Assembly (NCBI RefSeq): GCF_001548115.1
Contig: NZ_AP014825.1
Coordinates: 1-48,007, forward strand
Source of the DNA: Geminocystis sp. NIES-3709
Lineage (GTDB): Bacteria > Cyanobacteriota > Cyanobacteriia > Cyanobacteriales > Cyanobacteriaceae
Reading direction: 5' to 3'
Length of the DNA: 48,007 nucleotides
Notes under the pieces: model-generated
What the model was told of the DNA's origin: nothing
Seen by the model: only the letters and a program-made list of their open reading frames with translations
Databases searched by the model: none
Part shown: positions 15,579 to 36,250 of the stretch, in pieces
Numbering within the stretch: position 1 is the stretch's first letter
Layout: each line of letters starts with the position of its first letter
Translations under genes and position numbers: made by a program

Positions 15579-16916
15579 TTAATCAGAAATGTTTGTTAAC
15601 TGGAAAATTTTCTCCACGGTATTAGTTATAATCTCTGCGCTTTTTTCTATTTCCATATCGGTAGTGAATTTTCCTACTCCGATTCTCAACGCACCTTCGA
15701 TTAAATCATCAGATAAATTCATCGCTGTTAAAACGTGAGAAGGAGAAACAGTGGCACTACTACAAGCTGAACCCGTAGAAATAGCTAATTTATGTCTAAT
15801 TCGAGCAATAACAGCACTATTTAGTACATTAGGAATAGATATATGCAGATTTCCAGCTAGGCGATTTTCTGTGTCTCCGTTGATGACTAATTGAGGGATT
15901 TTGCTTTGTAATAATGATTGTAGATGATTTCGTTTAAGGGCGATCTCCCTTTCATCTTCTTTCATTTCTAACTGTCGTAAATAACAAGCCTCTCCCAAGC
16001 CGACTATCCCTGATACATTTAATGTACCTGATCTAATGCCGTTTTGATGTCCCCCGCCATAAATGAGGGGTTGTAAATGATAACCTTTTTTGATGACTAA
16101 TGCACCGATACCCTTTGGGGCGTATAATTTATGACCAGAGATACTTAAAAAAGTGATACCCCAATCCTCAAAATTAACGGGAATTTTGCCCACTGCTTGA
16201 GAACCATCGCAAAGAAAGGGTATATGATATTTTTGAGCTATTTTACCGATTTCTTCAATGGGGTATATATTGCCTACTTCATTATTCGCAGCCATCACAC
16301 ACAGTAAAGACGCACTTTCGCTACATAGTTTTTCCAGATGGTTTAAATCGATTCTGGCTTTTTGATCAACTTTTAACCAGATAATTTCTGCTAATCCTTT
16401 TTTTTCCATTGCCTGACAAGTATCGATTACTGCTTTATGCTCAACGGGTAAAATAATAATACGGGGTATTGAAATTTGATTTTCTTGGTTTTGACTTTCT
16501 GAAGGGATTATGTCAATTAATGGGTTTTGATTTTGAGAAGAAGTTAAAAAAATATTGTGGGAAGTAAAACTGAGATTTTCCCTAACTTCAGAATATTCAG
16601 AAGGGTATGACTGAATATTTTGAGAATTAAATTTATATTTTCTATGATTAACATTTAATTCAATTAAGCCTTGAATAACTAAGTTAATGCTTTCTGTTGC
16701 ACCAGAGGTAAAAATAATTTCTTGGGGTGAGGAGTTGATTAAATCCGCAATTTGTTGTTGAGCTTTTTTTATTGCTTCTTGAGCGAGATCTCCAAAAATA
16801 TGATCTATACTGCTACTGTTGCCAAAATTACTCATCATATAATCATAAACCTTATCGGCAACACGGCGATCGACGGGGGTAGTAGCGTGATAATCAAGAT
16901 AGATATGATTAGACAT
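15579..16916 (-). CDS. cysteine desulfurase, SspA/DndA-like
   Basis: This PLP-dependent NifS/IscS-type enzyme moves sulfur from cysteine to an acceptor. It has TSGATESINL near residue 70, PLP lysine K263 in SGHKLYAP, and sulfur-carrying C385 in STGSACSSAT. Residues about 88-150 form a Ser/Asn/Gln-rich insertion absent from typical ~390-residue homologues, between the PLP pocket segment and VEHKAV. In this setting it is the likely sulfur donor for DNA phosphorothioation, although housekeeping IscS-type enzymes look similar. The first 17 codons and start are duplicated at 17578-17629, beyond the VapBC cassette. Confidence 0.85.
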   Translation of the reverse strand: MSNHIYLDYHATTPVDRRVADKVYDYMMSNFGNSSSIDHIFGDLAQEAIKKAQQQIADLINSSPQEIIFTSGATESINLVIQGLIELNVNHRKYKFNSQNIQSYPSEYSEVRENLSFTSHNIFLTSSQNQNPLIDIIPSESQNQENQISIPRIIILPVEHKAVIDTCQAMEKKGLAEIIWLKVDQKARIDLNHLEKLCSESASLLCVMAANNEVGNIYPIEEIGKIAQKYHIPFLCDGSQAVGKIPVNFEDWGITFLSISGHKLYAPKGIGALVIKKGYHLQPLIYGGGHQNGIRSGTLNVSGIVGLGEACYLRQLEMKEDEREIALKRNHLQSLLQSKIPQLVINGDTENRLAGNLHISIPNVLNSAVIARIRHKLAISTGSACSSATVSPSHVLTAMNLSDDLIEGALRIGVGKFTTDMEIEKSAEIITNTVEKIFQLTNISD

Positions 16917-16917
16917 T
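16866..16917. repeat. 52-bp direct repeat, copy 1 (desulfurase 5' end)
   Basis: This covers the start codon and first 17 codons of the desulfurase gene. It matches 17578-17629 in the same orientation at 51 of 52 positions. The two copies bracket the vapBC pair. Confidence 0.9.
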
Positions 16918-16980
16918 TTTAATAATCAAGAATTATTTTGGGTATAATGTTTTTATATTTACACATTCTGCACTAAAAAA

Positions 16981-17193
16981 ATGAGAACTAATATTGATCT
17001 TGATGATAGTTTATTAGAAGAAGCCTTTCGTTTAACTAATGTCAGAACAAAAAAAGAATTAGTAAATTTAGCATTAAAAGAGTTTATTCGTAGTCGTCAA
17101 AAATTAAATTTATTAGATTTAAGTGGAAAAATTGAATTGAGAGAAGACTATGATTATACTCAACTAAGAAATAACAAAAATGTACCTAATTGA
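16981..17193 (+). CDS. vapB: VapB-type antitoxin
   Basis: The 70-residue protein begins MRTNIDLDDSLLEEAFRLT, a ribbon-helix-helix DNA-binding motif typical of VapB antitoxins. The C-terminal tail (SGKIELREDYDYTQLR) should wrap the PIN toxin. It overlaps vapC by 14 bp, so the two are translationally coupled. The RHH domain probably represses its own promoter in the 60-bp gap from the divergent desulfurase gene, so both directions may share control. Confidence 0.9.
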   Translation: MRTNIDLDDSLLEEAFRLTNVRTKKELVNLALKEFIRSRQKLNLLDLSGKIELREDYDYTQLRNNKNVPN

Positions 17194-17575
17194 TACTTCT
17201 GTTTGGATTAATATTTTTCGAGATAAAACAGGAATTAAAAGAAAACAATTAGAAAATATTATTCGAGATAATCCCTTCTTTTTAAGTCATTTTACACAAA
17301 TGGAATTATTACAAGGTGCAAAAAATGAAAAAGAATGGCAACTATTAGAAACTTATTTATATGATCAAGATTATCTAATGGAAAATGATCTTATTTTTGT
17401 TAATTCCGCTCGTATTTTTTATGATTTAAGGCGTAAGGGTTTAACTGTTAGAAGTAGCATTGATTGTTGTATTGCTCAATTAGCTCTTACTTATGATTTA
17501 ATTTTACTTCATAATGACAAAGATTTTGAGATTATTAAAAAAGTGAGAAATTTACAAACTATTACTTTTTCTTGA
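17180..17575 (+). CDS. vapC: VapC PIN-domain toxin
   Basis: The 131-residue PIN ribonuclease has the conserved acidic residues: Asp in YLIDTSVWIN, Glu in QMELLQG, and Asp in SSIDCCIAQLA and LLHNDKDF. It should cleave tRNA or rRNA unless bound by VapB. It overlaps vapB and ends 2 bp before the second copy of a 52-bp repeat from the desulfurase gene, which marks the edge of an inserted cassette. Confidence 0.92.
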   Translation: MYLIDTSVWINIFRDKTGIKRKQLENIIRDNPFFLSHFTQMELLQGAKNEKEWQLLETYLYDQDYLMENDLIFVNSARIFYDLRRKGLTVRSSIDCCIAQLALTYDLILLHNDKDFEIIKKVRNLQTITFS

Positions 17576-17577
17576 AA

Positions 17578-17629
17578 GCGATCGACGGGGGTAGTAGCGT
17601 GATAATCAAGATAGATAAGATTAGACATT
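17578..17629. repeat. 52-bp direct repeat, copy 2 (orphan desulfurase 5' end)
   Basis: This duplicate of the desulfurase start region lies immediately after vapC, with one mismatch from 16866-16917. No desulfurase coding sequence is attached to it, so it is the scar of a duplication or insertion event. Confidence 0.9.
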
Positions 17630-17665
17630 AATTGATCAAATAAATATTATTATGTTTTATACATT

Positions 17666-18271
17666 ATGACAAAAACAAAAATAGGTAAATATTTGACATT
17701 AGAAGAATTTTGTATGTGTAGTAATACATATAAATTATTTACTAAGGAAATAAATCCGTTTCCACAAGAAAAAGACAGTATTCAGGCAATCAAAGACTTA
17801 AATAAATATATTATCGATCCTATTATTGATAATTTTGGTTTTGAACAATTTAAACTTACCTATGGGTTTTGTTCTGTTGAGTTAAAAAAATATTTGAAGA
17901 AAAAAGATCCAAAAACTGGTAAACAATATGGAAGAATAGCACCAGAATTAGATCAACATATGTGTTATGAAAAAAACCAGAAAGGAAATTTATTTTGTAA
18001 AAGACTTGGCGCTGCTTGTGATTTTAAAATTACCAATATAAACACTAATCTAGTCATTGAGTGGATATACAAAGAACAACTTCCATTTGATAGGATGTAT
18101 TTTTATGGAAAAAATCGACCAATACACATTAGTTATGGCTCAGATAATAGTCGTGATTTTTGGATGTTTGATATTACGGAAAATGACAATATAATACCTC
18201 ATAAAATTTCTTTAATTGAATTTATCAATAATTACTGTGGGGAGGACAAGGGTGCTGAAAACATTGGATGA
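17666..18271 (+). CDS. M15-like (D-Ala-D-Ala carboxypeptidase fold) metallopeptidase-like protein
   Basis: The 201-residue protein shows the order of motifs seen in M15-type peptidases. There is a YLTLEEF start, a TYGFCS segment, then H98 (DQHMC), D119 (GAACDF) and H154 (RPIHISYG), which would be the zinc ligands. It has no signal peptide or membrane segment, so it should act in the cytoplasm, unusual for a cell-wall peptidase fold. It sits between VapBC and the PLD gene inside the phosphorothioation island. It could be an immunity-associated protease or a nonenzymatic derivative. The fold call is a motif-level inference. Confidence 0.55.
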   Translation: MTKTKIGKYLTLEEFCMCSNTYKLFTKEINPFPQEKDSIQAIKDLNKYIIDPIIDNFGFEQFKLTYGFCSVELKKYLKKKDPKTGKQYGRIAPELDQHMCYEKNQKGNLFCKRLGAACDFKITNINTNLVIEWIYKEQLPFDRMYFYGKNRPIHISYGSDNSRDFWMFDITENDNIIPHKISLIEFINNYCGEDKGAENIG

Positions 18272-18423
18272 TAAAGTGATTTTAGGGTTAAAATTATAGC
18301 AAAATAAGATATTCTGGATGACAAGATAATTTATGTATAAAAAACTTTAACTTATGAATATTTATCAACAACATTTGAAAAATCAATTTAGCATGAAATA
18401 CTTTTTTAGTAATAAAAATAATC

Positions 18424-19356
18424 TTACTGATACTTATAAAATATTTCTGAATAATTAGGTACAGATAAACCATAACGTGAAGGTAAAAAATAAAGAAACC
18501 AACGCATTAAAGTTTGCCATTGTATCTTTATATTAATATAATCAATTTCTTCCCCCTTAATTTTGTTTAAATAATCACAAACTTCTCCAAATCTACGAGG
18601 AATTGTGATAAAATCATCTATTTCTTGAATTATAGGTTTTTCTAATAATTGAATACCAATATAAAGATTAAATAATGTTTTACTAAGACTTTTTGGAAGC
18701 TCAAAAACAGATAAGTCTATAATGGCATTTTGACAAGCAATATTAGTTAATCTATCATATTCATTCGTATAAGCAAAATACAAATCTTCTGGATTTCTTA
18801 AAGTCGGTAGCCAATTTTTAATTATGTTTTGATCGGTATTTTTATTTAAACCAAACATATTATTACTATCTAATTTTAAAGATAATAATTCTTTTTGTTC
18901 GACGATCGCACTTTGATATAAATTAAATAATACTTGATCTACTTTGATACAATTATTAAATAATTGATGCTCAAAATTTTTTAACTCATCATCATCAGAA
19001 TTAACACTAATCATTAATTCAAAATTAGGTTTTTTTGACCAATTTAGCGCATTTGCCGTTAAATTTGCTGAACCGATTAAACATTGTTTATCTACTCGGT
19101 AATATTTAGCGTGTAAATTATTTCTTAACCATAAACTAGCGTAGGGAAAAGATTTAATAATTTCCCAAATTTCTATATCGCTAACTCCCATTAAAATTTC
19201 TTCAATACGCCAACGAGTTACACAGGTTATTTTTATTTCAGGATTAGTTAATTTTAAAAGTTCTTTGAATATTGAATTTTTTATAAAAGGAGCGACTAAA
19301 ATAATTTCATTTTCCGCTTTTTCGCATAAATTTTTAAGTTGATTACCAAAATTCAT
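18424..19356 (-). CDS. phospholipase D-family nuclease
   Basis: It contains one clear HKD motif (HAKYYRVD followed by LIGSANLT), the signature of PLD-superfamily nucleases such as Nuc and several restriction enzymes. Such enzymes usually dimerise to form the active site. The remaining ~190 residues are helical and unassigned, and may bind DNA or partners. I chose ATG 19356 (MNFGNQLKNL); the 18 extra residues from 19410 derive from a repeat-like intergenic sequence. It lies downstream of the GHKL ATPase gene on the same strand, so it could be the nuclease arm of that system. Confidence 0.82.
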   Translation of the reverse strand: MNFGNQLKNLCEKAENEIILVAPFIKNSIFKELLKLTNPEIKITCVTRWRIEEILMGVSDIEIWEIIKSFPYASLWLRNNLHAKYYRVDKQCLIGSANLTANALNWSKKPNFELMISVNSDDDELKNFEHQLFNNCIKVDQVLFNLYQSAIVEQKELLSLKLDSNNMFGLNKNTDQNIIKNWLPTLRNPEDLYFAYTNEYDRLTNIACQNAIIDLSVFELPKSLSKTLFNLYIGIQLLEKPIIQEIDDFITIPRRFGEVCDYLNKIKGEEIDYINIKIQWQTLMRWFLYFLPSRYGLSVPNYSEIFYKYQ

Positions 19357-19422
19357 TATTGAGAGATAAAAAAGATAATTTAAACATTTTATTCTTGTAG
19401 GGCGAGGCACACCTCACCGATG

Positions 19423-19512
19423 TAAGCTAAGACGCACCTAGTTTGCAATTCAGAACCTCTTACAGCAAGGGATTTAGACCTAAAAAAGGAAGATTAAATG
19501 AGTCTTAGCTTA
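19423..19512. repeat. inverted repeat in the GHKL-PLD gap
   Basis: TAAGCTAAGAC at 19423-19433 is exactly complementary to GTCTTAGCTTA at 19502-19512, with 68 bp between. The interior has no gene. It may be a small mobile-element remnant or a long-stem transcript structure ending the operon. Confidence 0.4.
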
Positions 19513-19515
19513 TCA

Positions 19516-21339
19516 TCACTCTTCGTTTTCCAAGAATCTTCTAGCAAGTCTTCCCCAATCAATACGGGCATCTTGGGCGTTTTGTTTGCGTATTCCTTCG
19601 GGTTGCTCATCTTCATATCTTGCCCATGCCATCAAGAGCAATTTAAGAGCCTTTAAAGAATTACCTAAACGAGTGCGTAAGATGTCTATATCCGCATCCT
19701 CAATATTATCCTCTAAAACTTCCACTAGATTTTTATAGGCGGGATGTTTGGTGTTAAGCTCGACAATAATTGCCCCTCCTTTGGGTTTGACGGAGAAAAA
19801 TGCAGGAGTATCCAAGGCAATTTCCGCAAAGATGTATTTTAAACCCTCATCAACGGTGGTAGCGGCGAGTAATTCGGCTTGACTAGCGGTGATTCCGTCT
19901 TCGATTAATGTTGTTTGAATGGCTTGTTTTCTCTCCTCTTTGGGTAGTTGTTCATCTCGATCGCTTTCTCCTTGATAACCGTTACTTTGTCTTTCTCTGG
20001 TGATAAAAGTTGCGGTTTTTTGAGGTTTATAATTCTCATGACGCTTATAAGAATTGCGATCGCCTTTCGTTTGTGCTTTAAGAGAGGCTCTAATAATACT
20101 CAATGTTGAGTTAATTTTTTCAGCTATATCTAATAATGGTAACTTGGGATCTTCATCTTCTTTTAATTCCTCTTTTAATTGAGCAACGGTTTTACCATTT
20201 TCTAATAAAGATTCTATGTCAAGGGCTAAAACTTCGCAAAAATTACGGGCAGATTGTTTATTATTAGTCACCCCAAAAAGATCATCAAGGGCTGGAGGAA
20301 ACTCTACTTCTACTCCCCACCATCTTTCAGTAGGTTCATAGCTATTAACTAAAGTTTGATCTAGTTCTAATTCTCGCCCTGCACGAACTACAGAAATTCC
20401 CAGATTTTTTTGAGCGTGTTTACCGTGAGGTAATGCCCCCGGTTGCTGACCATTTTCACTTTTTCTCGCTTCTTCTTTGGCATAAGCAAAACGAACTTTA
20501 ACTTCATGATCTTTTCCTTCAAAATTAAAAAGAAAGGTTGTTTCCTTATTGTTGTCTCCGTCCCATAGTTTAAACATGGGTTTATTATCAAAGGGAGGAG
20601 GACAAGATGTTTTACTCATTAAATAAAGGGGATCATTAGGTAAGGCATATCGTTCTAAAATTTGCTCATAAGTGTCTAAATCAAAGGCATACATCCTTAT
20701 CTTGACTTGATCATTATCCAAAAATTTGCGATACATTCTGCCGATGAGTAATTCGGAATGATCGATGATGGTTTTACCCGTGCGCCACATACAGCGATCG
20801 ATTTTTGACCACACTACCAATGTGCCACTTTGTCCAAAACCTTGCCCTACTTTTAACCATGTATGAGGTACAGATTTCGGAATCGGTTGGGGTACTTCGT
20901 TTAACTGACGAGTTTTAATTTCATCGAGATCAAGGTAAGTATAAAGGGTATTTTCTATTCCATTTTGCCATGACCAAACATCAACTCTCTTACACTGAGA
21001 AACCGATGATGAGGGTAAACCCATACCAAAACGCCCGATGCCTGTATGTTGATCTTTTTCTAGGTGAGTGCCGTTACCGAATTGCAGGGCTAGGCGTAAA
21101 ACGATCGCATCCATGCCACAACCATTATCTAAAACGGCGATTTGTTCGATATGAGAGCTTTTTCGGGATGTTAATTGTTTCATCCTTTGCCCACAGAGTA
21201 ATTCCACTTGCGATGCCCCTGCTTGAATGGCATTATCCATCAACTCAGCGATGGCATAGGCGGCATTTTTGTACCCGTTATCGCGCATGGCTTGAACAGC
21301 TAAATGTGCTGGAACTATATCATGGGGATTATTATTCAT
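19516..21339 (-). CDS. GHKL (HSP90/MutL/MORC-like) ATPase
   Basis: The ~607-residue protein carries the Bergerat ATP-binding fold: N-box AIAELMDNAIQAG near residue 30, DxGxG-type VLDNGCGMD near 65, and GIGRFGMGLPSSS near 95. Members of the MutL/MORC-like group clamp DNA and occur in predicted restriction systems. I chose ATG 21339 (MNNNPHDIVPAHLAVQAM); it overlaps the helicase stop by a few bases, indicating coupled translation. The C-terminal ~200 residues are charged and unassigned. The operon order GIY-YIG-like, DGQHR, helicase, GHKL suggests a DNA-scanning and restriction machine. The ATPase fold is certain; the role is inferred. Confidence 0.88.
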   Translation of the reverse strand: MNNNPHDIVPAHLAVQAMRDNGYKNAAYAIAELMDNAIQAGASQVELLCGQRMKQLTSRKSSHIEQIAVLDNGCGMDAIVLRLALQFGNGTHLEKDQHTGIGRFGMGLPSSSVSQCKRVDVWSWQNGIENTLYTYLDLDEIKTRQLNEVPQPIPKSVPHTWLKVGQGFGQSGTLVVWSKIDRCMWRTGKTIIDHSELLIGRMYRKFLDNDQVKIRMYAFDLDTYEQILERYALPNDPLYLMSKTSCPPPFDNKPMFKLWDGDNNKETTFLFNFEGKDHEVKVRFAYAKEEARKSENGQQPGALPHGKHAQKNLGISVVRAGRELELDQTLVNSYEPTERWWGVEVEFPPALDDLFGVTNNKQSARNFCEVLALDIESLLENGKTVAQLKEELKEDEDPKLPLLDIAEKINSTLSIIRASLKAQTKGDRNSYKRHENYKPQKTATFITRERQSNGYQGESDRDEQLPKEERKQAIQTTLIEDGITASQAELLAATTVDEGLKYIFAEIALDTPAFFSVKPKGGAIIVELNTKHPAYKNLVEVLEDNIEDADIDILRTRLGNSLKALKLLLMAWARYEDEQPEGIRKQNAQDARIDWGRLARRFLENEE

Positions 21340-22954
21340 GGTTTTTCCTCCAAACGTCTTCCCAATTGTTAAAAGCATCTGAAACAGACCCAAAACCGGG
21401 CATTTCACTATCGACTACTGTGATAATTTCGGCGGTAGCGTTGCCTCCTGCTTTGAGTCCTCTAATGGCTCGTCCGACCATTTGGCTATATAGTACAAGG
21501 GATTTGGTGGGACGGGCAATGACGGCGGCACTGGTTTTTGGTGCATCGAATCCAGTGGTTAATACGCCATAGTTACATAAGACTTTTGGTTCGGGGCTAC
21601 TATCTTTGAAGCTGTTGATAATTGCCTCTCTTTCTGCTTTGGGGGTTGTACCTGTAAGGGCGATCGCATTCCATCCTCTTAGTCGTAAAACAGAGGTGAG
21701 AATTTGAGCATGGTTAACGGAAATAGCAAAAACAATAATACGCTTGTGTCTTTGGGTTAAGGTTTCTAATTCGAGAATAATGCGGAGGTTGCGTTGCTCG
21801 TCTTCTTCTAATCGATGGAGAATATAGGGGGGGATGTCTAATTCTTCGTTAATGCGTTTGATGTCTTTTTGGGTCAATTTTAAGCCACTATCATAAAAGA
21901 GAGGGCGATAAATGGCTTTAGCTAAGTATTCTTGTTCTACGAGATAATCAACGGGGTTATCATAGCCTTCTATTTCAAGGGTTACTTTTTGTTGAGCGAA
22001 AAAATTAGCTAGTTGAGCGTCTTTATCTATGTCTGCCCATGTGCGTCCGGGGGTGGCTGTTAACCCTAGTAAGGCTTTTTTTTCGTAGGGAATGACGAGG
22101 CTATCTAATACTAATTTGTAGGTAGGGGCGATCGCCTGATGGGCTTCATCGATAATTACTAGGGATGTACGCACTCCTAATTGATTAATAAAACGGATAC
22201 TTTTTTGTAGGGCGTTATAAACTTTGCTCAATCCTGCCACCACAAAACCATCTTTTATATCTTCTATGGCTAAATCATGGCTACCCCAGAAGCGATAAAC
22301 AGTTAAGGTGCGATCGCCAAAATAGCCCCAAGCCTTCTCAAACTCATTTACAGCCTGTTCGCATAATTCTTCACTATAAGCCAACCAAACCACCAAAGTC
22401 AGTTCATTATTCCGTAGATGATCAGCGATAATATTCATCGCTGTACGGGTTTTTCCAGCCCCTGTCGGCATATGTAAAAGCCCACGATAGGGAGAATTAT
22501 ATAAATATTTTTTAACCCGATTAGCGGCGTTTCTTTGGTGTTTAAATAAAGGATATTGAGGAATAATTTCAAGAAAAGAGGGTTTTTCTACAGTGATATT
22601 TGTTTGACGATAAACAGGAATTTCAAACAAGTTAAATAAATATTTTTCTGCTTCTGAATTCTGTTTAATGGTAACTTTTTTCAGTCTTTTATATACATCT
22701 TTATCAGGGGGTGCATTCCAAACAGTGGCTAAAATTTTAGCTTGTTCAGAAGTCAGTAATTCTAAGATTAAATCACGATGATATTTTGATCTTAATAATT
22801 CTTCTTTTGTCTTTAAAGTTAATAAAGCCGTTATTAATTGCTCCTTATCTATCCCATATTTATCTAACAGTTTTAAGATATTAAAGATGGGCATACCTAG
22901 TAAATTACTAAGTATTTTTTCATCTGCATTGAGTAATAAAGTTTCTAATTTCAA
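21332..22954 (-). CDS. SF2 DEAH-type helicase
   Basis: The 540-residue SF2 translocase shows Walker A MPTGAGKTRT, motif II IIDEAHQAI, motif III GLTATPGR and motif VI QMVGRAIRG, similar to restriction-type and XPB-like helicases. The ~120 residues before the motor are helical. It begins 21 bp after the DGQHR gene and its stop overlaps the start of the GHKL ATPase gene, so the three are one transcription unit. It likely supplies ATP-driven translocation for the putative restriction complex. Confidence 0.92.
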   Translation of the reverse strand: MKLETLLLNADEKILSNLLGMPIFNILKLLDKYGIDKEQLITALLTLKTKEELLRSKYHRDLILELLTSEQAKILATVWNAPPDKDVYKRLKKVTIKQNSEAEKYLFNLFEIPVYRQTNITVEKPSFLEIIPQYPLFKHQRNAANRVKKYLYNSPYRGLLHMPTGAGKTRTAMNIIADHLRNNELTLVVWLAYSEELCEQAVNEFEKAWGYFGDRTLTVYRFWGSHDLAIEDIKDGFVVAGLSKVYNALQKSIRFINQLGVRTSLVIIDEAHQAIAPTYKLVLDSLVIPYEKKALLGLTATPGRTWADIDKDAQLANFFAQQKVTLEIEGYDNPVDYLVEQEYLAKAIYRPLFYDSGLKLTQKDIKRINEELDIPPYILHRLEEDEQRNLRIILELETLTQRHKRIIVFAISVNHAQILTSVLRLRGWNAIALTGTTPKAEREAIINSFKDSSPEPKVLCNYGVLTTGFDAPKTSAAVIARPTKSLVLYSQMVGRAIRGLKAGGNATAEIITVVDSEMPGFGSVSDAFNNWEDVWRKNHE

Positions 22955-22975: not shown

Positions 22976-25312
22976 TTATTCTACAGATTCAGAATTGACA
23001 TTTTCTAGAGATGATTGTTTAGAAATACGGTCGATAATTTTATCAGCTTCAGTAAACTTGCCTAAACTTGCTGAAATATTTTCTCGGCACTTATCTCTAA
23101 TTGATGTTTCTGTTTGATTTCTTTTCTGCTGTTCTTGTTCATTGATTTCCTCGTCTGATTTACCTTCACCCTTGAGTCCAGCTTTGAGTAATAAAATTTC
23201 TTGATTAAATTCCTTAGAATTTAGTGCTGAATCAACAGCTTTTTTAATATAACCATCTCGTAAATTCAGCAAACTATTTACCAATTCTGGTAATAATTCT
23301 CTGTATTTTTGGGATAAAGATGAGTTATCTGGATTATTTAAAAATGTTAAAAGTGCTTCAGAACTATATTTGCTGTGAACTATTTCTAAAATGGCGTACC
23401 GGAAGAAAATCCATTGAGTTTCATTAAGTTCCTTAACACTTTGGGCTAAAAGTCCTCTTAAACCTAATTCATTAGGATCAAATACCTTTGTCCTAGATTC
23501 TTTAACAAAACCTGTTAAGGTTCGATGCTCAGTATTAGAATCACTGGAAAAATACTGATTAAGAGCATTAAGATATAAATTGTTAATAAATTTCACAATG
23601 TTTAATCTATCTTCATACTTACTATCAGGCTGCATAAAGATTTCAACAACGGAATGAACAGCCATTAAATAGCCAAGTTGAAAGGCTTGGGTAGAGATAG
23701 TATCATAAATCCATTTTGAACGATTTAGTAACTCTTTTTGATCCTCTATATTATCTTCTGACGTGAAAAATCTACTATAGTCAATATTAAAGAGTTTAGC
23801 AGCTCTTCTTTTTTTGATGTCTTCTTCATAACGATTAACTTGAGTAGAGGTTGCTTGAGCATCATTTAATTGATTAATAATATAATCCCCTATACTTTTT
23901 CCTTCGTCTTCTAAACTATCTTTTCTGTCTTTTAATCGCTTAATATGATCTTCAAAGACAGTTCTTACTCCACTTCCTTCAAAAAGTAAACTGTAGCATT
24001 TTGCTTGAATAGGATCACCTCTTAAAGCCGGATCTTGTAAACGAGTGCGTAAGGCTCTCATTTCACTATTATGAACAGCGAAAGGATGAAACTTATCAAA
24101 GAGAGATAGTATTACTTCATCAGTTATTTCTGCTAAATATTTAACAGCTTGTTGAACTTCATCAGGGGGATGATATTTTCCAGAACGGCGAGAAAGAGAT
24201 GACCATTTTTGTAAAGAAGTTCCGATTAAAATTGCAGTTGGACGTTCTGTATTTACAACTCTTCTCCCATCAGTAATAATATCTTGTAACTGTTCTAGCT
24301 TAAAAGCATCAGGATTAGCAAAAGCAACAGCAGCGTGCATTTTATATAAAGCTACTGCCGTACTATATTCAAGTTGACCTGCAACTACTTCTGATTTACG
24401 ATTTTGTGCTTCAGAAATGGAGTCACCAAAAGCAAAGGAATAAATACGAGCTAGGGAGGCAGTATCTTCTCCACGACCTTTGAGTTTGGATAAAGTTTCT
24501 CGCATCATTCTTGCTGCAAAATCTTCATCATCTAATAGTAATTCTCTGGATTGACTAACTCGTTTAGCGGTTTTATTAACTACTAAAAATATTTCCCGAC
24601 AAACACTTTTAAGGTCAATTCCTCGATCTTTATATTCTTGATTACCTTCATGGAGGTCAGGAAAAAAGACAATACAAATCGGTAATTCAATATTCTTGAC
24701 TTGATTTTCTGTTAAAGAAAGATGATTGTAATAAGTAGCATAACGATTACCTGCCCAACTATCATTAATTTGGCGATGTAATGCTAAAAGAGCCATTGCT
24801 CGATGTTGTCCATCAACTATAATAAATGCTGTTTTTTGGCGATTATATTTGATTAAACCAAGAGGACTAACTTCGCCTTGAATCACTGCTTTTTCAAAGT
24901 CAAATAAATTGCCAAAGCTGATTGAAGTATCATTTTGATTTTCAGGAATGGGATAGTAAGATAATATTCCCGATCTTTCTGGTTTATTGGGAACTAAAAC
25001 TGCGAGAATGGGGGGAAAAAATCTGGCAAACGCACCACTTTCTCCTAATAGGTAGGGAATTAGATCATGTGCTACACGAGAATCGTCTAAATCTCTTTGT
25101 AGGAGTTCATCAAAGGTTAATTCTTCGATGTTAAATATCTCTCGCCAAGGAACCATTTGAGAAGCAAGAGAATTTTCCCAACTTCCTTCTGAACCAGGCT
25201 TCATTTTTGTGAGTAAAAATTGAGCGCGAACACGATTACCGTCAGAACCTATTGCAAATTCCCCATAAGTTCCGTAAATTGGATCTTTTTGAACACCAAA
25301 ACTAAATGACAT
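22976..25312 (-). CDS. large DGQHR-domain protein (DndB/ParB-like fold)
   Basis: The ~778-residue protein contains IIVDGQHRAMALLAL near residue 165, the motif of the DGQHR family to which the phosphorothioation regulator DndB belongs. SspE, a phosphorothioate sensor, has a related DGQQR motif. The protein is roughly twice the usual DndB length, and its C-terminal 400 residues are helical with no recognised motif. ATG 25312 is preferred, 2 bp after the GIY-YIG-like stop; an in-frame start at 25330 overlaps that gene. In this operon it is a plausible reader of DNA sulfur marks. The motif is certain, the role is inferred. Confidence 0.82.
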   Translation of the reverse strand: MSFSFGVQKDPIYGTYGEFAIGSDGNRVRAQFLLTKMKPGSEGSWENSLASQMVPWREIFNIEELTFDELLQRDLDDSRVAHDLIPYLLGESGAFARFFPPILAVLVPNKPERSGILSYYPIPENQNDTSISFGNLFDFEKAVIQGEVSPLGLIKYNRQKTAFIIVDGQHRAMALLALHRQINDSWAGNRYATYYNHLSLTENQVKNIELPICIVFFPDLHEGNQEYKDRGIDLKSVCREIFLVVNKTAKRVSQSRELLLDDEDFAARMMRETLSKLKGRGEDTASLARIYSFAFGDSISEAQNRKSEVVAGQLEYSTAVALYKMHAAVAFANPDAFKLEQLQDIITDGRRVVNTERPTAILIGTSLQKWSSLSRRSGKYHPPDEVQQAVKYLAEITDEVILSLFDKFHPFAVHNSEMRALRTRLQDPALRGDPIQAKCYSLLFEGSGVRTVFEDHIKRLKDRKDSLEDEGKSIGDYIINQLNDAQATSTQVNRYEEDIKKRRAAKLFNIDYSRFFTSEDNIEDQKELLNRSKWIYDTISTQAFQLGYLMAVHSVVEIFMQPDSKYEDRLNIVKFINNLYLNALNQYFSSDSNTEHRTLTGFVKESRTKVFDPNELGLRGLLAQSVKELNETQWIFFRYAILEIVHSKYSSEALLTFLNNPDNSSLSQKYRELLPELVNSLLNLRDGYIKKAVDSALNSKEFNQEILLLKAGLKGEGKSDEEINEQEQQKRNQTETSIRDKCRENISASLGKFTEADKIIDRISKQSSLENVNSESVE

Positions 25313-25314
25313 AA

Positions 25315-26001
25315 TTAACGTCTCCCACAAATTGGATCTGCTATGATTTGTAATAATTTTTCTAAAGTACGTCTATATTTTTGTTCTGATTGCATATCTT
25401 CATCATCAGTACCAATTTCTTGAGGAAGATTATCAGTGGGAAAGATATGTACCATTAAATCTCTTGGAGCTATATTTCTAACCCTAGCTTCTAAAGCAAA
25501 AGAATGGGATAAATTAAGCTCTGTCATAACTATCTGCACATTTACTTCAGGATGTAAAGTTAAGTATTTACTAATACGAGAATTATCATCCCACATTTCT
25601 ACCAATGATAAATAATGTTGCTGGTAAACTCTTGTATAAAAATTTTTAGCTATACCTATATAAATAGGTCTTGTAAAGAATTGAACAGCTTCTGATTTGA
25701 AAAAGTGAGTAATAAAATTTTCTCCATATTGAATTGCTTCAGAAAATATCTCAGCTAAAGATTGATTGTTTGAACCGTAAAATATATTTAACGGTGACTC
25801 GGAAATCAACTTAACTCCATAGCGCATATTAATTTGAGTTTTAATTTCTTGTTGATTATCCAAAAAAGACGTTAAAGTTTTAGTCAAATCATTAGCATTT
25901 TCTAGCAATAAAGGCTTGTAATACCAGGCATATAAACCAGAAATCTGTGGGATTCTAGCAATTTGCATTCCACCCTGAAATTGCCGTTGTTCATTTTTCA
26001 T
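25315..26001 (-). CDS. GIY-YIG-like nuclease domain protein
   Basis: The 228-residue protein has a split GIY-YIG pattern: GLYAWYY at residues 22-28 and PIYIG at 112-116, then N120, R124 (candidate catalytic Arg) and a downstream Glu near 172. The ~85 residues between the two halves are longer than in compact GIY-YIG nucleases. It is the first gene of the four-gene operon, 2 bp before the DGQHR gene, and could provide strand cleavage. Its upstream border is a copied fragment of the SspD-like gene end, so its promoter may have changed when the YefM-YoeB cassette arrived. Confidence 0.6.
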   Translation of the reverse strand: MKNEQRQFQGGMQIARIPQISGLYAWYYKPLLLENANDLTKTLTSFLDNQQEIKTQINMRYGVKLISESPLNIFYGSNNQSLAEIFSEAIQYGENFITHFFKSEAVQFFTRPIYIGIAKNFYTRVYQQHYLSLVEMWDDNSRISKYLTLHPEVNVQIVMTELNLSHSFALEARVRNIAPRDLMVHIFPTDNLPQEIGTDDEDMQSEQKYRRTLEKLLQIIADPICGRR

Positions 26002-26019
26002 TTTAAAATATACTTATAA

Positions 26020-26095
26020 ATTACAAACTAAACAAGGTAAAGTTGAATCTTCATCATCTAATACAGACTCTAAAGCCTCAACTAAAAGGTAATTA
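26020..26095. repeat. orphan copy of the SspD-like gene 3' end
   Basis: This ~75-bp stretch matches 26690-26765 in the same orientation with roughly 85-90% identity by eye. It encodes the CLVCNL terminus again on the minus strand. The two copies bracket the YefM-YoeB genes. It lies between the GIY-YIG-like start and the toxin stop. Confidence 0.85.
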
Positions 26096-26139
26096 GATAC
26101 TTTTTTGTTGTAAGATTACACTAACTGCTATTGATACTT

Positions 26140-26406
26140 TTATTCATAATGTGTCCACATCCTAATAATTTTGATGGTTTTTTTTTCTTCAAATACCTGA
26201 TAAACTAAACGATGTTGAATATTAATTTTTCTGGAATAATAACCTTTTAAATCTCCTGTTAATTTTTCATAAGGGGGATAAGATTCATAGGGATTTTGTT
26301 GAATAATATCTAAGAGTTTATTCACTTGTTTTCCTAAACCACAAGAAGCTATTTTTCTAGCATCTTTTACCCCTTGTTTAGTAAAAACTAATTGCCATTT
26401 ATCCAT
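26140..26406 (-). CDS. yoeB: YoeB/Txe-type RelE-family toxin
   Basis: The 88-residue toxin begins MDKWQLVFTKQGVKDARKI and ends with IQHRLVYQVFEEKKTIKIIRMWTHYE, the conserved C-terminal core with catalytic Arg, His and Tyr residues of YoeB. These enzymes cut mRNA at the ribosomal A site. It overlaps the antitoxin gene upstream by 8 bp. With its partner it forms a cassette inserted between the SspD-like gene and the GIY-YIG-like operon. Confidence 0.92.
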   Translation of the reverse strand: MDKWQLVFTKQGVKDARKIASCGLGKQVNKLLDIIQQNPYESYPPYEKLTGDLKGYYSRKINIQHRLVYQVFEEKKTIKIIRMWTHYE

Positions 26407-26659
26407 TTAAAATATCTCTGATACTAGATTCTTCTATACATTCCGATAACGGTGTTTTTCCTCCTTTTTTTATTGATTCAATCATGTTAGGAATTGAGCT
26501 TAAATAAAGAGTTTCCTGTATAGCATTCCATTCTGATTCGGAAATTAATACAGCGTTTCCTGTCTCTCCTTTTAGCAAAATTGGTTGATTTTTTTCTATG
26601 GCTTGATTAAGGAATTTTTCGATTTTATTGTTATCTTGATTAACTAATATTGTTTCCAT
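26399..26659 (-). CDS. yefM: YefM/Phd-type antitoxin
   Basis: The 86-residue Phd/YefM protein has the typical N-terminal DNA-binding fold (NQAIEKNQPILLKGETGNAVLISESEW) and an acidic C-terminal tail that should bind the toxin. It overlaps yoeB by 8 bp. Autorepression from the 31-bp gap downstream of the SspD-like gene is likely, but read-through from that gene is also possible. Confidence 0.92.
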   Translation of the reverse strand: METILVNQDNNKIEKFLNQAIEKNQPILLKGETGNAVLISESEWNAIQETLYLSSIPNMIESIKKGGKTPLSECIEESSIRDILNG

Positions 26660-26690: not shown

Positions 26691-27491
26691 TTACAAATTA
26701 CAAACTAAACAAGGTAAGGTTGAATCATCATCATCTAACACAGACTCTAAAGCCTCTGCTAGAGGGCGATTCGGAGCTTTTTTCTGCTCTCGTGCGATCG
26801 AACGTTCATGATGTGCTATAATTTCCTCTTTGCGCTCTAATAATTCCAAGAGAGTTTCTCCCTGATTCCATGTATAGGTGCGCCCATCTTGATGATTAGA
26901 CTCGTATTCAACGGCTTTTGCAAACAAATCAGGATGATTTTCTGCCAACATTACCCATTCATACTTACGTTGAAAGAAACAGAAAAAACAACCAGAGCGA
27001 CTGCGCCATTTATAATATTCAGGTAAGCCAATACCGCTTTCCTCTAATAGTTGCAGAATATCGGCTTTGACTAAACCTTTCTCTTTGAAGGGAAAAACGG
27101 GTTTAATATTCGGTTTCGTAGAGATATAACCCTCCCTATTTTCATCGGCGCGAATGCCAATATAACTGATAGCCTCATCATCGCCGACAAACTCCTCAAA
27201 AGGCTTAATCTTCATTTTAACCGTACACCAACGCATCTGAGGAGAAGGCAGTAAACCATCATGAATCGCCAACCAATGATCAAAACCTCTTTTTTCGCTG
27301 AGATAATGTATTTTAATGCCTAAACGGGCTTGTATGCGATCGAGGTAATCGTAAGTTTCTTGTAGCTCTTTGTGCGTATCACAAAAAAAATACTCCATAT
27401 CGGGGATTTCTTTGTGTAGTAAAATAGCTAAGGCGGTAGAATCCTTGCCACCACTTAATCCTAAAACGTGTCTGACTCTTTTTTCAGTCAT
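26691..27491 (-). CDS. SspD/DndC-like PAPS-reductase-family protein
   Basis: The 266-residue ATP-pyrophosphatase-type protein has the PP-loop SGGKDST at residues 13-19 and cysteines in RWCTVK (C90), GCFFC (C169, C172) and PCLVCNL (C261, C264), which could hold an Fe-S cluster or carry sulfur. In Dnd and Ssp systems this protein activates DNA backbone phosphate and inserts sulfur with the cysteine desulfurase. It is shorter than typical DndC, and the cluster lacks DndD/DndE and has DUF4007, so an Ssp-like assignment fits better. Its last ~75 bp are duplicated downstream, beyond YefM-YoeB. Confidence 0.87.
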   Translation of the reverse strand: MTEKRVRHVLGLSGGKDSTALAILLHKEIPDMEYFFCDTHKELQETYDYLDRIQARLGIKIHYLSEKRGFDHWLAIHDGLLPSPQMRWCTVKMKIKPFEEFVGDDEAISYIGIRADENREGYISTKPNIKPVFPFKEKGLVKADILQLLEESGIGLPEYYKWRSRSGCFFCFFQRKYEWVMLAENHPDLFAKAVEYESNHQDGRTYTWNQGETLLELLERKEEIIAHHERSIAREQKKAPNRPLAEALESVLDDDDSTLPCLVCNL

Positions 27492-27929: not shown

Positions 27930-27969
27930 TTAATAAGTCCAGTTATCGTTAAAACCTTGTATTTTTGCT
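27835..27969. repeat. 67/68-bp tandem duplication of the HNH gene 3' end
   Basis: 27835-27901 and 27903-27969 are near-identical direct copies. The second copy contains the HNH stop codon and encodes the terminal GFNDNWTY, while the first is an orphan encoding GFNDNQIY followed by a stop. Confidence 0.9.
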
Positions 27970-29057
27970 AAGGATATTAAAGGCTCAAACTGACGGTTAT
28001 AAATATTAGTTAAAGTTTCTAAATTTAATAAATCTTCTATGTGACTTATCTTTAAATCTAGCAGATAATTTTCTGTATATTTTAACCATTCTTTTTGAGG
28101 TAAATATTGATGAGAAATAGTTAAGCCTTGATGTTGTAATTGAATAAATTTGGCTAAATATTGAGATGATGGTATATTATTTGATTTAGAACTATTAACA
28201 CTACTCATAGTTGGTATTAAATTCCAAAGTCGATCGTGGGCAACAAATGACCAGGGTAAATAATGATCGATCGAAACACTATTTTTATCTAAAATTTGAT
28301 GAGAATATATACATTTTATTGGTTGTTTGTCTAAGATAATTTTCCAATATTTAGCTTGTTGATGGAGAGATTCTCGTTTATCAAGGGGAAATAATTTACT
28401 AGCCAGATTAGGGGTATTTTGATTATTTTTTTGCATATAATTTAACCATTCCCAAGCTACCCAACCTTTAATAATTGTAAAATTTTGCTTAAAATATTCT
28501 ACCCAGTCAGAGTTTAAAATAATGCTATTAGTTTCTTTATATTCCGTACTATTAAAACAATAAATAGGCTTATAATTATCAAATAAATTAGTTGATAATT
28601 CGGTAATTCTAAAATTAACTAAATAATCTTTTGTTCCTCTTAATTCATTGGCAAAAAAAGGACGAATTAAACGAAAAGGCACAAAACGCATTAAACTATT
28701 ACTAATATCATCTAAATTTTGTTGACCAATAAGATTAATTAACTTTTCTTTTTTAGTAACTTTTTCTGTATAAAACTCTATATTTAATTGATCTAATTTA
28801 TTAGCAATTTGATCTTGTTTGCCAAAGGATAGCTTAAAAAATATATGAGGATACCACGCATTAGCTAAAATTTCTATGACTAATTCTCTAAAATAAATTC
28901 TTGTTGAATTGTCAAATAATTTTCTAGCTAAAATATCTAATAAAGCATTGAAAAATAGATACTTATAAGAGTTAGTAGTTGCATCAAATAACTGAGATAA
29001 AGCTGATATATTTAGATGATCAGATTCTGGTAGATTATTCATTTTACTATTCGTCAT
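27930..29057 (-). CDS. HNH endonuclease
   Basis: The 375-residue protein has an HNH/McrA-like core in its C-terminal third: CIYSHQIL, then SIDHYLPWSF (catalytic His) and RLWNLIPT (Asn). The N-terminal ~230 residues are helical and lack known motifs. It lies upstream of the SspD-like gene on the same strand, and HNH proteins often accompany PAPS-reductase-type phosphorothioation genes, so it may cleave DNA lacking the mark. The last 40 bp are part of a duplication that left an orphan tail downstream. Family call good; target unknown. Confidence 0.8.
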   Translation of the reverse strand: MTNSKMNNLPESDHLNISALSQLFDATTNSYKYLFFNALLDILARKLFDNSTRIYFRELVIEILANAWYPHIFFKLSFGKQDQIANKLDQLNIEFYTEKVTKKEKLINLIGQQNLDDISNSLMRFVPFRLIRPFFANELRGTKDYLVNFRITELSTNLFDNYKPIYCFNSTEYKETNSIILNSDWVEYFKQNFTIIKGWVAWEWLNYMQKNNQNTPNLASKLFPLDKRESLHQQAKYWKIILDKQPIKCIYSHQILDKNSVSIDHYLPWSFVAHDRLWNLIPTMSSVNSSKSNNIPSSQYLAKFIQLQHQGLTISHQYLPQKEWLKYTENYLLDLKISHIEDLLNLETLTNIYNRQFEPLISLAKIQGFNDNWTY

Positions 29058-29108
29058 CAGTATTAACTTTTAAAGATGTTTTTATTAAATAAAATGAGTT
29101 GTTAATAC

Positions 29109-29881: not shown

Positions 29882-29887
29882 TAAAGT

Positions 29888-29960
29888 TAGGCTCAGCCTA
29901 GGGGTAGTCGTATGACTGCCGAAATATAAGCCGCTAAGAAAATGGCGGTTTTGTTTTTTG
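29888..29960 (+). ncRNA. predicted ~70-nt structured small RNA
   Basis: Three hairpins follow the consensus promoter: TAGGC/GCCTA (29888-29900, loop TCA), GGTAGTC/GACTGCC (29903-29920, loop GTAT, one G-U pair) and a terminator-like AAGCCGC/GCGGTTT stem (29928-29951) followed by a T-rich run to 29959. The span has no reading frame worth translating. It lies between the divergent ends of Uma2 and DUF3800. I do not recognise a known RNA family; it could be a plasmid-borne regulatory RNA. Confidence 0.6.
29945..29960 (+). terminator. rho-independent terminator of the predicted small RNA
   Basis: The second arm GCGG (29945-29948) pairs with CCGC at 29931-29934 and is followed by TTTTGTTTTTTG. It faces the 3' end of the DUF3800 gene, whose stop is at 29966. 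Confidence 0.6.
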
Positions 29961-29965
29961 TAGGT

Positions 29966-30758: not shown

Positions 30759-30780
30759 AAATTAACACAAAAAATATTAT

Positions 30781-32037: not shown

Positions 32038-32038
32038 A

Positions 32039-34651: not shown

Positions 34652-34873
34652 AATTAAAATTAAACAAAAATACCGAGATTAAAGTGTTAGAGTAATAAGA
34701 ACTTTGCAGTTTGATAACCCACGATTATTTCTAAAATTGTATAGCACTTTAGTTAATAATATTATTCATTAGACATCGATGTTCTTGCTTGTAGAATGTA
34801 TATTTTTACCTGTCATTGATAATAACGATCAAATTTAAGAGGCTAACTCTCAATTCCTAATTGCCAACTCAAG

Positions 34874-35226
34874 TTATAAGTGAGAAATAATTGGGGTGTC
34901 AGCTAATAATCTTTCCGCCACTTCCGTATGTTTAACCAAATCCACATTAGTCATAAAAGTTGAGTAGGTTAAAAAAGCTAATAGGGAACGAGGATCGATA
35001 ATCCAAGGGGAAAGATATTGGGGTAATTGACATAATCCCAAGGATGTTAGTTCGGCTAGTGCTGGTAAATCTAAAACATCTAGTTTGCCACAAAAGAGTA
35101 ATTTTAAGCAATCTGATCGCACTAAGAATCCGAATCGGCTTATTTGCCTGTTGGAGTAATTTAGCCACATGACAAATTCTCTCTTGTTCTTTTTCGGTGG
35201 TTAAGTCTGTCGCATTAATTGATAGT
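34874..35226 (-). pseudogene. remnant of an unidentified gene with an internal frameshift
   Basis: The coding trace runs from about 35226 (TEKEQERICHVAKLLQQANK..) in one frame, then switches near 35110 into another frame (KLDVLDLPALAELTSLGLCQ.. to TPIISHL at the stop 34874). Both halves look protein-like, with Leu-rich helices and SPWIIDPRSLLAF. The N-terminal part is missing and an upstream stop precedes it. I do not recognise the family. It lies between the DUF4007 and SspC-like genes and may be a former member of the cluster. Confidence 0.6.
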
Positions 35227-35332
35227 TAGGTGAAAAGAATCCTAACTTTATTCCTCTTGTCTTTACTATATCAATTACACTAAAATTTGTAATCTACATT
35301 TCTGTATTTTTCACGAAGCAATCCCGATTAAC

Positions 35333-36250
35333 TTAAATCCTACCATAAAAACGATCGAGAATTTGGGATGCTAAATCAAGGGGATTTTTTTCAAAAGATA
35401 GTTGCACTAAACCAGCCGTATCCGCTAAAAATAAAGATGATTCTTGACGGCATACTGCTTCAATCGCCGAATAAATAGCTTCTTCTGATAGTTTGAATAC
35501 AGTGCCGGGGCTTCCTTTGTCGTAAAGTAAACGAGAAATAGTAATAGTGAATTGATTTTGGCTTACCCAACTGGCGTATTCTAAACAAGTGGCTACGATT
35601 ATCGCTGATAGTAAATTAGGCTTACTACCGAAACGAAAACGGTAATAATTGCTATTTTTTGGTTGATAAATTAATCCTAACTCAGTAAAGGGACAGTCGA
35701 TCGAATCTTCCACAAAATTAGTATTGTCATTATCGGATTCCACATACATTCGCAAAATACAATTAATATCCTTGACGAGAGAAGAATCAGCGACAGTTTT
35801 ATTCAATTCCTGTAGATAATCCGTTAAACCCTTGAGTAAATCTTCCTTTTTAAACTCATTTTGATTGAAAAGATTAAAGGCATAATACCACGCACCAGCG
35901 TTACAAGTTGGTTTAAGTAAATTCCAGTGTAATAACCATAGGGAGGCAGGATTTTCTAAATACCTATCCCAACCATTAACACCCAAAAGATTATTACCAA
36001 AGAAAGAGGGAGTATTATCGTCATCAATAATTTTAAAAGCATAACACCAATAACGAAGTGATCGAACCATATTTTTACCCACTCCCAACCTAACTGGTGC
36101 ATCTTCAGAGTTGAAAATATGACTATCATTAGATGCCGCATCAAAACCTTTCTTTAACCAACCCCAACGGGGATGAAAAGTCTCATGACGGGCAAAAGTT
36201 GAAGTTACAGGATTATCTAAAAGATTTAACTCCAAATTAGTTTTATTCAT
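35333..36250 (-). CDS. DUF4007 protein, SspB-like
   Basis: The 305-residue protein starts with the family signature TFARHETFHPRWGWLKKGFDA and continues with RLGVGKNMVRSLRYWCYAF, characteristic of DUF4007. In Ssp phosphorothioation systems the DUF4007 protein (SspB) is the nicking component that opens one strand for sulfur insertion. Its co-occurrence with the desulfurase, PAPS-reductase-like protein and large ATPase gives a complete SspABCD-like set, though scattered over 20 kb. No frame damage is visible. Family assignment is strong; the Ssp role is by analogy. Confidence 0.82.
   Translation of the reverse strand: MNKTNLELNLLDNPVTSTFARHETFHPRWGWLKKGFDAASNDSHIFNSEDAPVRLGVGKNMVRSLRYWCYAFKIIDDDNTPSFFGNNLLGVNGWDRYLENPASLWLLHWNLLKPTCNAGAWYYAFNLFNQNEFKKEDLLKGLTDYLQELNKTVADSSLVKDINCILRMYVESDNDNTNFVEDSIDCPFTELGLIYQPKNSNYYRFRFGSKPNLLSAIIVATCLEYASWVSQNQFTITISRLLYDKGSPGTVFKLSEEAIYSAIEAVCRQESSLFLADTAGLVQLSFEKNPLDLASQILDRFYGRI

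Follow-up and report, generated by a model that had tools for sequence, protein, structure and literature searches.

A putative restriction arm of SF2 helicase, MORC-like GHKL ATPase and PLD protein beside the SspABCD genes of Geminocystis sp. NIES-3709

Which proteins serve as the restriction arm of an Ssp DNA phosphorothioation (PT) system that has none of its described partners? By the counts given in PMC8092258, 2,247 of 2,678 sspBCD sets (2,678 minus 196, 199 and 36) carry neither SspE nor SspFGH. The question is raised anew by the 48,007-nucleotide stretch analysed here (bases 1-48007 of contig 5 in the 12-contig, 4.43 Mb genome of Geminocystis sp. NIES-3709; hereafter the window), which encodes the SspABCD proteins and, downstream of the writer genes and on the same strand, a small protein, a DGQHR/DndB-type protein, an SF2 helicase, a MORC-like GHKL ATPase, a PLD protein and SspA. 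Judging from gene content, gene order and conserved residues, we regard it as likely that this is an Ssp phosphorothioation system whose restriction arm is formed by the SF2 helicase, the MORC-like GHKL ATPase and the single-HKD PLD protein. Proteins for CyRepA1-type plasmid replication and ParB-like proteins are encoded in the window, which was therefore read as a plasmid. Plasmid pCHL69-2 of Cyanobacterium sp. HL-69 (Geminocystaceae) carries the nearest whole cluster found. The writer genes and the three candidate effector genes are the following.

35333..36250, minus strand: sspB (DUF4007); Pfam DUF4007 345 bits, PADLOC SspB 414 bits
32039..34651, minus strand: sspC, N-terminal part of a split ATPase; PADLOC SspC 1322 bits
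30781..32028, minus strand: sspC, C-terminal part; PADLOC SspC 489 bits, profile positions 737-1104 of 1104
26691..27491, minus strand: sspD (PAPS-reductase-like sulfurtransferase); PADLOC SspD 385 bits, Pfam PAPS_reduct
21332..22954, minus strand: SF2 helicase; Pfam ResIII and Helicase_C, best PADLOC match PbeA 9.6e-28, PDB RadD 4.5e-21
19516..21339, minus strand: MORC-like GHKL ATPase; Pfam HATPase_c_3 1.8e-20, PDB MORC2 9e-4; listed open reading frame (ORF) start 21408, likely ATG 21339
18424..19356, minus strand: PLD (HKD) phosphodiesterase, likely a nuclease; Pfam PLDc_2 27.9 bits (cut-off 27); listed ORF start 19410, likely ATG 19356
15579..16916, minus strand: sspA (cysteine desulfurase), 3' end of the cluster; PADLOC DndA 452 and SspA 449 bits, Pfam Aminotran_5

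An original prediction, made from the letters of the window alone, had taken the desulfurase, the DUF4007 protein and the PAPS-reductase-like protein for writer components, and Pfam and PADLOC identified them as SspA, SspB and SspD. The "large ATPase" of the same prediction turned out to be SspC, but to be encoded by two ORFs instead of a single gene: on the SspC profile PDLC02781, the best stretch of the N-terminal ORF runs up to position 737 and that of the C-terminal ORF from 737 to 1104. Because both halves meet at the same profile position and the HL-69 plasmid (L015) carries a two-ORF SspC as well, the split was considered natural and not a sequencing error. The N-terminal ORF ends in a repetitive QQ(V/L)TxNS-like stretch. 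The window holds SspB, SspC, SspD and a desulfurase together, and on the basis of this gene set the SspABCD proteins probably put sulfur on host DNA. A PADLOC scan of 20 window proteins gave no match to SspE, SspFGH, DndFGH, DndD, DndE, PglZ or BrxL, and hidden Markov models (HMMs) built here for SspE, SspF, SspG and SspH found nothing among all window ORFs of at least 60 aa (seeds were PADLOC-confirmed proteins for SspE, SspF and SspH, and their neighbour gene for SspG), in agreement with the earlier statement that restriction genes of the SspE or DndFGH type are absent.

The predicted tight operon was also recovered. The likely GHKL start codon, preceded by GGAGG, overlaps the helicase stop by 8 nt, and the likely ATG of the DGQHR gene (25312) lies 2 nt past the upstream stop. 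Pfam identified the SF2 helicase, the GHKL ATPase and the PLD and HNH genes as such, and their key residues are conserved (distinct aligned rows were counted, with the window entered once). In the GHKL family, the N-box glutamate is present in 96/97 rows and the G1 aspartate in 97/97; the helicases keep the Walker A lysine in 83/91 rows, the remaining 8 being gapped there, and the aspartate of the DEAH box in 89/91; in the PLD proteins, H, K, S and N of the HxK...GSxN signature are invariant (66/66), and the PLD aspartate is found in 51/66 as aligned. By eye, GISVVRAGREL of the window GHKL fits the MORC S5 motif GhXhhpXXRhl at 10 of 11 positions. RadD was the best match of the helicase both in NCBIfam (below cut-off) and in the PDB, and the NCBIfam model for DNA phosphorothioation restriction scored 61 bits against it, with a cut-off of 600. 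The PLD protein had no PDB sequence relative at E <= 0.1.

How general is this arrangement? When the GHKL alignment was run against GTDB species genomes, 235 relatives were obtained, and the best 80 of these 235 provided the loci counted here, whose content was scored with HMMs built for this work at a threshold of at least 60 bits. SspB, SspC or SspD was present in 64 of the 80 loci, and in 38 of the 44 in which flanks of at least 9 kb were available on both sides. The helicase was found in 78 loci and the PLD gene in 56, and 38 loci contained all six of SspB, SspC, SspD, helicase, GHKL and PLD. Between ends of HMM matches, the median spacing was 26 nt for helicase-GHKL (77 loci) and 54 nt for GHKL-PLD (54 loci). 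The PLD gene, which had been regarded as merely lying nearby, is the usual third member. DGQHR, in contrast, was detected in 5 of the 80 loci and the window-type GIY gene in 2 (plus one weak). The proposal of a DGQHR-helicase-GHKL trio as Ssp companion was consequently upheld for helicase-GHKL, which is tied to the writer and matches no described partner, but not for DGQHR as a fixed member: the conserved unit is SF2 helicase-MORC-like GHKL-PLD, and DGQHR is separate and optional.

Writer-linked loci came from ten phyla, counting a plasmid of Treponema saccharophilum (34%, a weaker match) that carries DUF4007, an SspC-like ATPase, a desulfurase, helicase, GHKL and PLD, together with a weak SspD-like match. 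Plasmid records with at least 80% GHKL coverage numbered 12, of which 11 were fetched. Ten of these 11 (Cyanobacteria, Hymenobacter, Alphaproteobacteria) had writer genes beside helicase and GHKL, 8 of the ten with PLD too; on the Agrobacterium plasmid (L020), DUF4007 lies about 16 kb off. The eleventh, from Leisingera (GHKL 27% identical), had no writer in its stretch. At the PLD position, plasmids of Agrobacterium (L020:9028-10104) and Aminobacter (L024:13786-14862) encode a 359-aa protein without Pfam match.

The relative placement of writer and effector varied. Of 60 loci with SspC, 40 have the writer upstream in the same orientation, 16 have it convergent with the effector and 4 have it downstream. 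Distance correlations between families reached 0.96 for SspB-SspC, 0.87 for GHKL-helicase and 0.83 for GHKL-SspA, against 0.48-0.63 for GHKL with SspB, SspC and SspD, 0.49 for GHKL-PLD and 0.43 for helicase-SspC, and all of them exceeded 999 permutations. A clean division into two blocks does not account for so high a GHKL-SspA and so low a GHKL-PLD value; it seems that SspA moves in part together with the effector and that PLD is fast-evolving or exchanged. Writer and effector appear to have been re-paired over time, which favours function over hitch-hiking.

Linkage was next evaluated at the level of whole genomes, in two samples that each include the genome on which they are centred, positive beforehand for GHKL and DUF4007. 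Among 386 cyanobacterial genomes, GHKL (E <= 1e-50) was found in 13, DUF4007 in 44 and both in 13, 12 of them new (hypergeometric 9e-14, relatedness ignored). In 12 of the 13, the pair lies on one contig within about 17 kb; the thirteenth genome, an assembly of 240 contigs, has the two on different contigs. The second sample, 385 genomes from the class to which Aurantiacibacter luteus belongs (Alphaproteobacteria), had GHKL in 5, DUF4007 in 8 and both in 5, 4 of them new (hypergeometric 8e-10, relatedness ignored), with all 5 pairs on one contig within 8 kb. The original prediction held that a trio occurring mostly without writer genes would break the link; for helicase-GHKL the opposite was observed, all 18 GHKL genomes having DUF4007. 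A simple clustering in defence islands with no functional dependence would suit a defence-rich plasmid such as the window, with its CBASS and AbiLi/RloB-like genes, but would hardly produce co-occurrence in 18/18 genomes of two samples, in three arrangements, at short distances and in ten phyla. Because of the genome co-occurrence we reject it as the whole explanation and consider it very improbable.

The distribution of PLD informs about the part that it may play. A writer in the locus or DUF4007 in the genome accompanied 53 of the 56 PLD-bearing loci and 16 of the 24 PLD-less ones (Fisher test 0.002, relatedness uncorrected), and the three PLD-bearing loci without writer are all metagenome bins, as would be expected if PLD were the dangerous part. 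Such a distribution would also suit a PT-triggered suicide device, sensing loss or overload of PT in infection and then destroying all DNA or killing the cell, and for Dnd loci the idea of backup suicide nucleases has been put forward (PMC10853773). Helicase and clamp together would nevertheless exceed the machinery that a suicide nuclease needs, and the genes belong to a compact core and are not boundary genes, so that we find this explanation unlikely. Alternatively, helicase-GHKL could serve the writer or the maintenance of PT-DNA, opening or remodelling DNA for single-strand sulfur insertion, with no part in restriction. The linkage is indeed to writer genes, helicase-GHKL pairs persist without PLD, and RadD, the best match of the helicase in NCBIfam (below cut-off) and in the PDB, is a repair helicase. 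On the other hand, GHKL is absent from 31/44 cyanobacterial and 3/8 second-sample DUF4007 genomes, other Ssp systems modify DNA without GHKL according to PMC8092258, and in most loci a PLD gene comes next whose active-site residues are conserved; a role in writing or maintenance is thus quite improbable, slightly more so than suicide.

Several observations weigh against a fixed, PT-dependent helicase-GHKL-PLD restriction arm. To begin with, the 80 GHKL loci are not independent of one another, and 16 of them have no writer. Half of these 16 (L047, L048, L051, L066, L072, L073, L079 and L095; three from Microcoleus/Oscillatoriaceae and five from Chloroflexota) are helicase-GHKL pairs without PLD in genomes devoid of DUF4007, which indicates that helicase-GHKL can live without PT. 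The five Chloroflexota pairs share a common context that, by eye, resembles ordinary chromosomal genes, and the eight pairs have possibly been domesticated for another role. The other writer-less loci either have DUF4007 elsewhere in the genome (L045, L050, L052, L078, L101) or are metagenome bins with no DUF4007 in the genome (L049, L069, L080), in two of which the contig starts within 0.5 kb upstream of GHKL. On a quick maximum-likelihood tree, unrooted and with eight unclear loci uncounted, the writer-less state required two changes, each in a small clade supported by an SH-aLRT of 100; our own reading, with no root inferred, is loss of the writer rather than gain. In three of the PLD-less loci (L040, L042, L050) the sequence stops directly after GHKL. 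Moreover, in 20 loci writer, helicase and GHKL occur without PLD, and 17 of these 20 carry SspE, DGQHR, a DndB-like protein or HNH, compared with 12 of 61 PLD-bearing loci (Fisher test 3e-7, relatedness uncorrected). The nuclease may therefore be exchangeable and not fixed. Nine of the 17 are cyanobacterial HNH cases whose helicase lacks the region through Walker A, which suggests decay or rewiring. With a broad HMM, GmrSD-family proteins (SspE or other) were detected in 14 of the 64 stretches linked to a writer, which means that further nucleases are often close by. Finally, no PT-binding domain of known type was identified.

Described effectors were seldom found beside the module. Within the fetched stretches, neither full-length SspE (over 250 bits) nor SspF/H was found in 60 of the 64 writer-linked GHKL loci. 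SspE is present in L029, L036, L067 and L097, and L085 has an end-cut, SspE-like 211-aa fragment (157 bits) that is included among the 14 GmrSD cases. Seen from the writer side, GHKL was present in 5 of the 8 alphaproteobacterial DUF4007 genomes and in 10 of 34 cyanobacterial DUF4007 stretches. These 34 come from the 44 genomes less the window, HL-69 and eight genomes whose matches were short or weak, and one of them (L142) is the DGQHR contig of its genome instead of the DUF4007 contig. Four of the 34 had SspF/G/H parts, one had SspE and four had DGQHR without GHKL; the remaining stretches, several of them on short contigs, had none of these, one of them (L121) having the helicase at the contig end.

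The DGQHR gene and the other genes around sspD are the following.

22976..25312, minus strand: DGQHR/DndB-type protein (784-aa ORF), candidate sensor or regulator; Pfam DndB 29.2 against a gathering threshold of 29.1 bits; listed ORF 22976-25330, likely ATG 25312
25315..26001, minus strand: small DGQHR partner, possibly GIY-YIG-like; weak Pfam GIY-YIG match in 3 of 4 aligned members, the window's not among them
26140..26659, minus strand: two-gene pair within a partly duplicated sspD 3' end, probably toxin-antitoxin from its sequence; HL-69 counterpart annotated toxin-antitoxin
27930..29057, minus strand: HNH gene, a recurrent accessory of cyanobacterial Ssp loci; Pfam HNH_4 41 bits

The 784-residue protein was predicted to be of the DGQHR type, and the motif is present, as in 20/20 distinct rows. 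Membership of the DndB family is borderline, with the Pfam cut-off just reached and the NCBIfam DGQHR model (TIGR03187) at 31.8 against 58.85, below cut-off. Among the 386 cyanobacterial genomes, the long DGQHR protein gave 9 strong matches, all with DUF4007 and all adjoining sspD, and 4 of these 9 genomes lack GHKL; 4 weak matches (about 1e-9) came from genomes without DUF4007. DGQHR and helicase-GHKL are therefore two separately mobile parts, each tied to Ssp. An AlphaFold model of the DGQHR protein (6 rows) had a pLDDT of 58, and Foldseek of this model against the PDB returned nothing at E <= 0.001. Matches to TFIID in a PDB profile search (best E 0.017) were weak and taken as chance.

The GIY-YIG identity proposed for the gene at 25315-26001 was not corroborated. 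No Pfam, PADLOC or NCBIfam match at E <= 0.001 was obtained for the window protein, the Pfam GIY-YIG match is sub-threshold in the three other members that show it (best E 0.0097), and the AlphaFold model (4 rows) had a pLDDT of 35. Nor did any match in Pfam, NCBIfam or PADLOC back the "M15-like" label of the gene at 17666-18271. An sspD remnant at 26017-26109 corresponds to SspD residues 236-266 at 77% identity, and in HL-69 a toxin-antitoxin pair is annotated where the two-gene pair lies in the window. Elsewhere in the window, a CBASS-like pair (3088-5226) consists of a cGAS-type cyclase (4240-5226) and a SAVED endonuclease-type effector (3088-4236), and a RloB-like protein and an AbiLi-like AAA ATPase form a pair at 39910-41840.

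The position between sspD and helicase behaves as a slot with variable content. In 35 loci sspD is followed, on the same strand, by a helicase that is intact at least in part, and in 21 of these fewer than 500 nt separate the two. Otherwise, the slot may hold SspE (L029, L036), HNH (L031, L032, L037), an ORC/CDC6-like protein (L017), a protein of the GmrSD type that PADLOC does not class as SspE (L044, with L125 similar in Pfam), a DndB-like protein of 432-455 aa (L030, L104, L108), a different weakly GIY-YIG-like protein (L018, L068) or the large DGQHR protein (window, L016, L033, L041, L043, L113, L115, L120). In hhalign, the GIY-like family of the window matched the other weakly GIY-YIG-like family with a probability of 11%. 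At the helicase position of Xenococcus sp. PCC 7305, L046:8821-9978 encodes a DACNK sensor with a DisA-like nucleotide cyclase domain. HNH was found in 10 of the 80 loci, every one cyanobacterial, and in several Nostocales loci its ORF replaces the first ~179 helicase residues: the helicase match begins at residue 179-184 in L031, L032, L034, L035, L037, L038, L040 and L042, at 194 in L039 and at 372 in L119, and sspD is absent or fragmentary in several of these loci. A fused HNH-helicase protein was ruled out, as there are two separate ORFs.

In the eight loci with a large DGQHR protein in the slot, the adjacent order GIY(-like)-DGQHR-helicase-GHKL is kept, with the small gene weak in L113, L115 and L120, and DGQHR occurs in four PLD-less loci. 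This could mean that a single PT-sensing machine is built from a DGQHR reader, the helicase and GHKL, its nuclease being the GIY-YIG protein. The rarity of DGQHR among GHKL loci and the DGQHR genomes without GHKL argue otherwise, as does Asticcacaulis, with DGQHR and sspABCD but neither helicase nor GHKL in the fetched stretch, and we give this alternative as little weight as the suicide device. Within the proposed helicase-GHKL-PLD arrangement, the DGQHR protein is probably an optional, SspE-like PT sensor with a ParB-like NTPase domain, as judged from its motif and slot. The comparison draws on the slot shared with SspE, whose N-terminal GTPase has DGQQR and is stimulated by PT (PMC13251355).

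How does the window compare with named systems? It shares the writer with SspABCD-SspE, and its DGQHR protein occupies the slot that SspE has in L029 and L036 and has in common with SspE, a PT-stimulated GTPase and HNH nickase, the DGQ[HQ]R NTPase signature (PMC13251355), but helicase, GHKL and PLD are not parts of SspE, which the window lacks. SspABCD-SspFGH has the same writer and a multi-gene restriction arm, none of whose proteins is in the window; according to PMC8092258, the target of SspFGH is unmarked DNA, as expected here too, and SspF contains a Walker A and SspH an FtsK-like part. Both arms can coexist, as the Agrobacterium plasmid (L020) holds SspF and SspH beside the helicase-GHKL pair. 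The best PADLOC match of the helicase is PbeA, which in the archaeal PT system fuses PLD, ResIII and Helicase_C (PMC6459918). However, DndCDEA-PbeABCD (archaea and bacteria) has a Dnd writer, the SMC-like PbeC and small PbeB and PbeD, and the window has an Ssp writer, GHKL and separate PLD and helicase genes, with no PADLOC match to the other Pbe families among the 20 proteins, so it was not assigned to PbeABCD. BREX type 4 has DUF4007, PAPS reductase and a BrxC/SspC-like ATPase in common with the window (PMC12839542), and was ruled out by the lack of PglZ and BrxL in the PADLOC scan; the same scan ruled out Dnd/DndFGH, with DndF, DndG, DndH, DndD and DndE not found. Weak domain-level PADLOC matches of the GHKL N-terminus to MzaB (1e-20) and of PLD to DrmC (1e-8) recall MZA and DISARM, which were discarded with no further component matched among the 20 proteins.

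The closest precedent is a 2008 prediction (PMC2292703) of restriction operons with a GHKL+S5 ATPase, an SF2 helicase and a nuclease, sometimes HKD, for which DNA looping was proposed and in which prokaryotic MORC operons were tied to methylases. The window has the same combination of GHKL, SF2 helicase and nuclease genes as these MORC/paraMORC operons. Anabaena variabilis and Nitrococcus mobilis, named in figure legends of PMC2292703, carry the helicase-GHKL-PLD module (L016, L103). The terms PAPS, DndB and phosphorothio do not occur in the text of that paper, whose figures may draw these very operons. A pairing of helicase-GHKL-PLD with SspABCD was not found described in the literature searched, subscription papers and preprints being largely beyond reach. 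What appears to be new is the stable pairing of SspABCD with helicase-GHKL-PLD in ten phyla, and what was known is PT restriction and, as a prediction, GHKL-helicase-HKD operons.

ResIII-type SF2 helicases are enzymes that move on DNA, and single-HKD PLD enzymes generally act as dimers. In the mechanism that we propose, SspABCD would mark host DNA with sulfur, the helicase would load on DNA and then move along or open it, a GHKL dimer would act as an ATP-gated clamp, closing on DNA and coupling or looping sites, and a dimer of the PLD protein would nick DNA. The sulfur mark would protect, and the helicase-clamp-nuclease, possibly as a complex, would damage unmarked DNA; DGQHR would be a second, optional arm in the SspE slot, sensing PT. 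Protection, as in DndFGH and SspFGH, is expected because PLD is rarely found without a writer, whereas the PLD-less helicase-GHKL pair does occur without one; we favour it somewhat over stimulation by PT, as in SspE.

In the broader form of this proposal, the MORC-like GHKL-helicase-PLD module would be a widespread, PT-gated restriction partner of SspABCD that explains many effector-less sspBCD loci, with DGQHR, SspE, DndB-like and HNH proteins as interchangeable second arms on the same chassis; for this wider claim we see the chances as evenly balanced. If true, orphan Ssp writers would gain an effector, a MORC-type ATPase would be assigned to a system whose DNA mark is defined, and whether MORC-type clamps read epigenetic state would become testable in laboratory strains.

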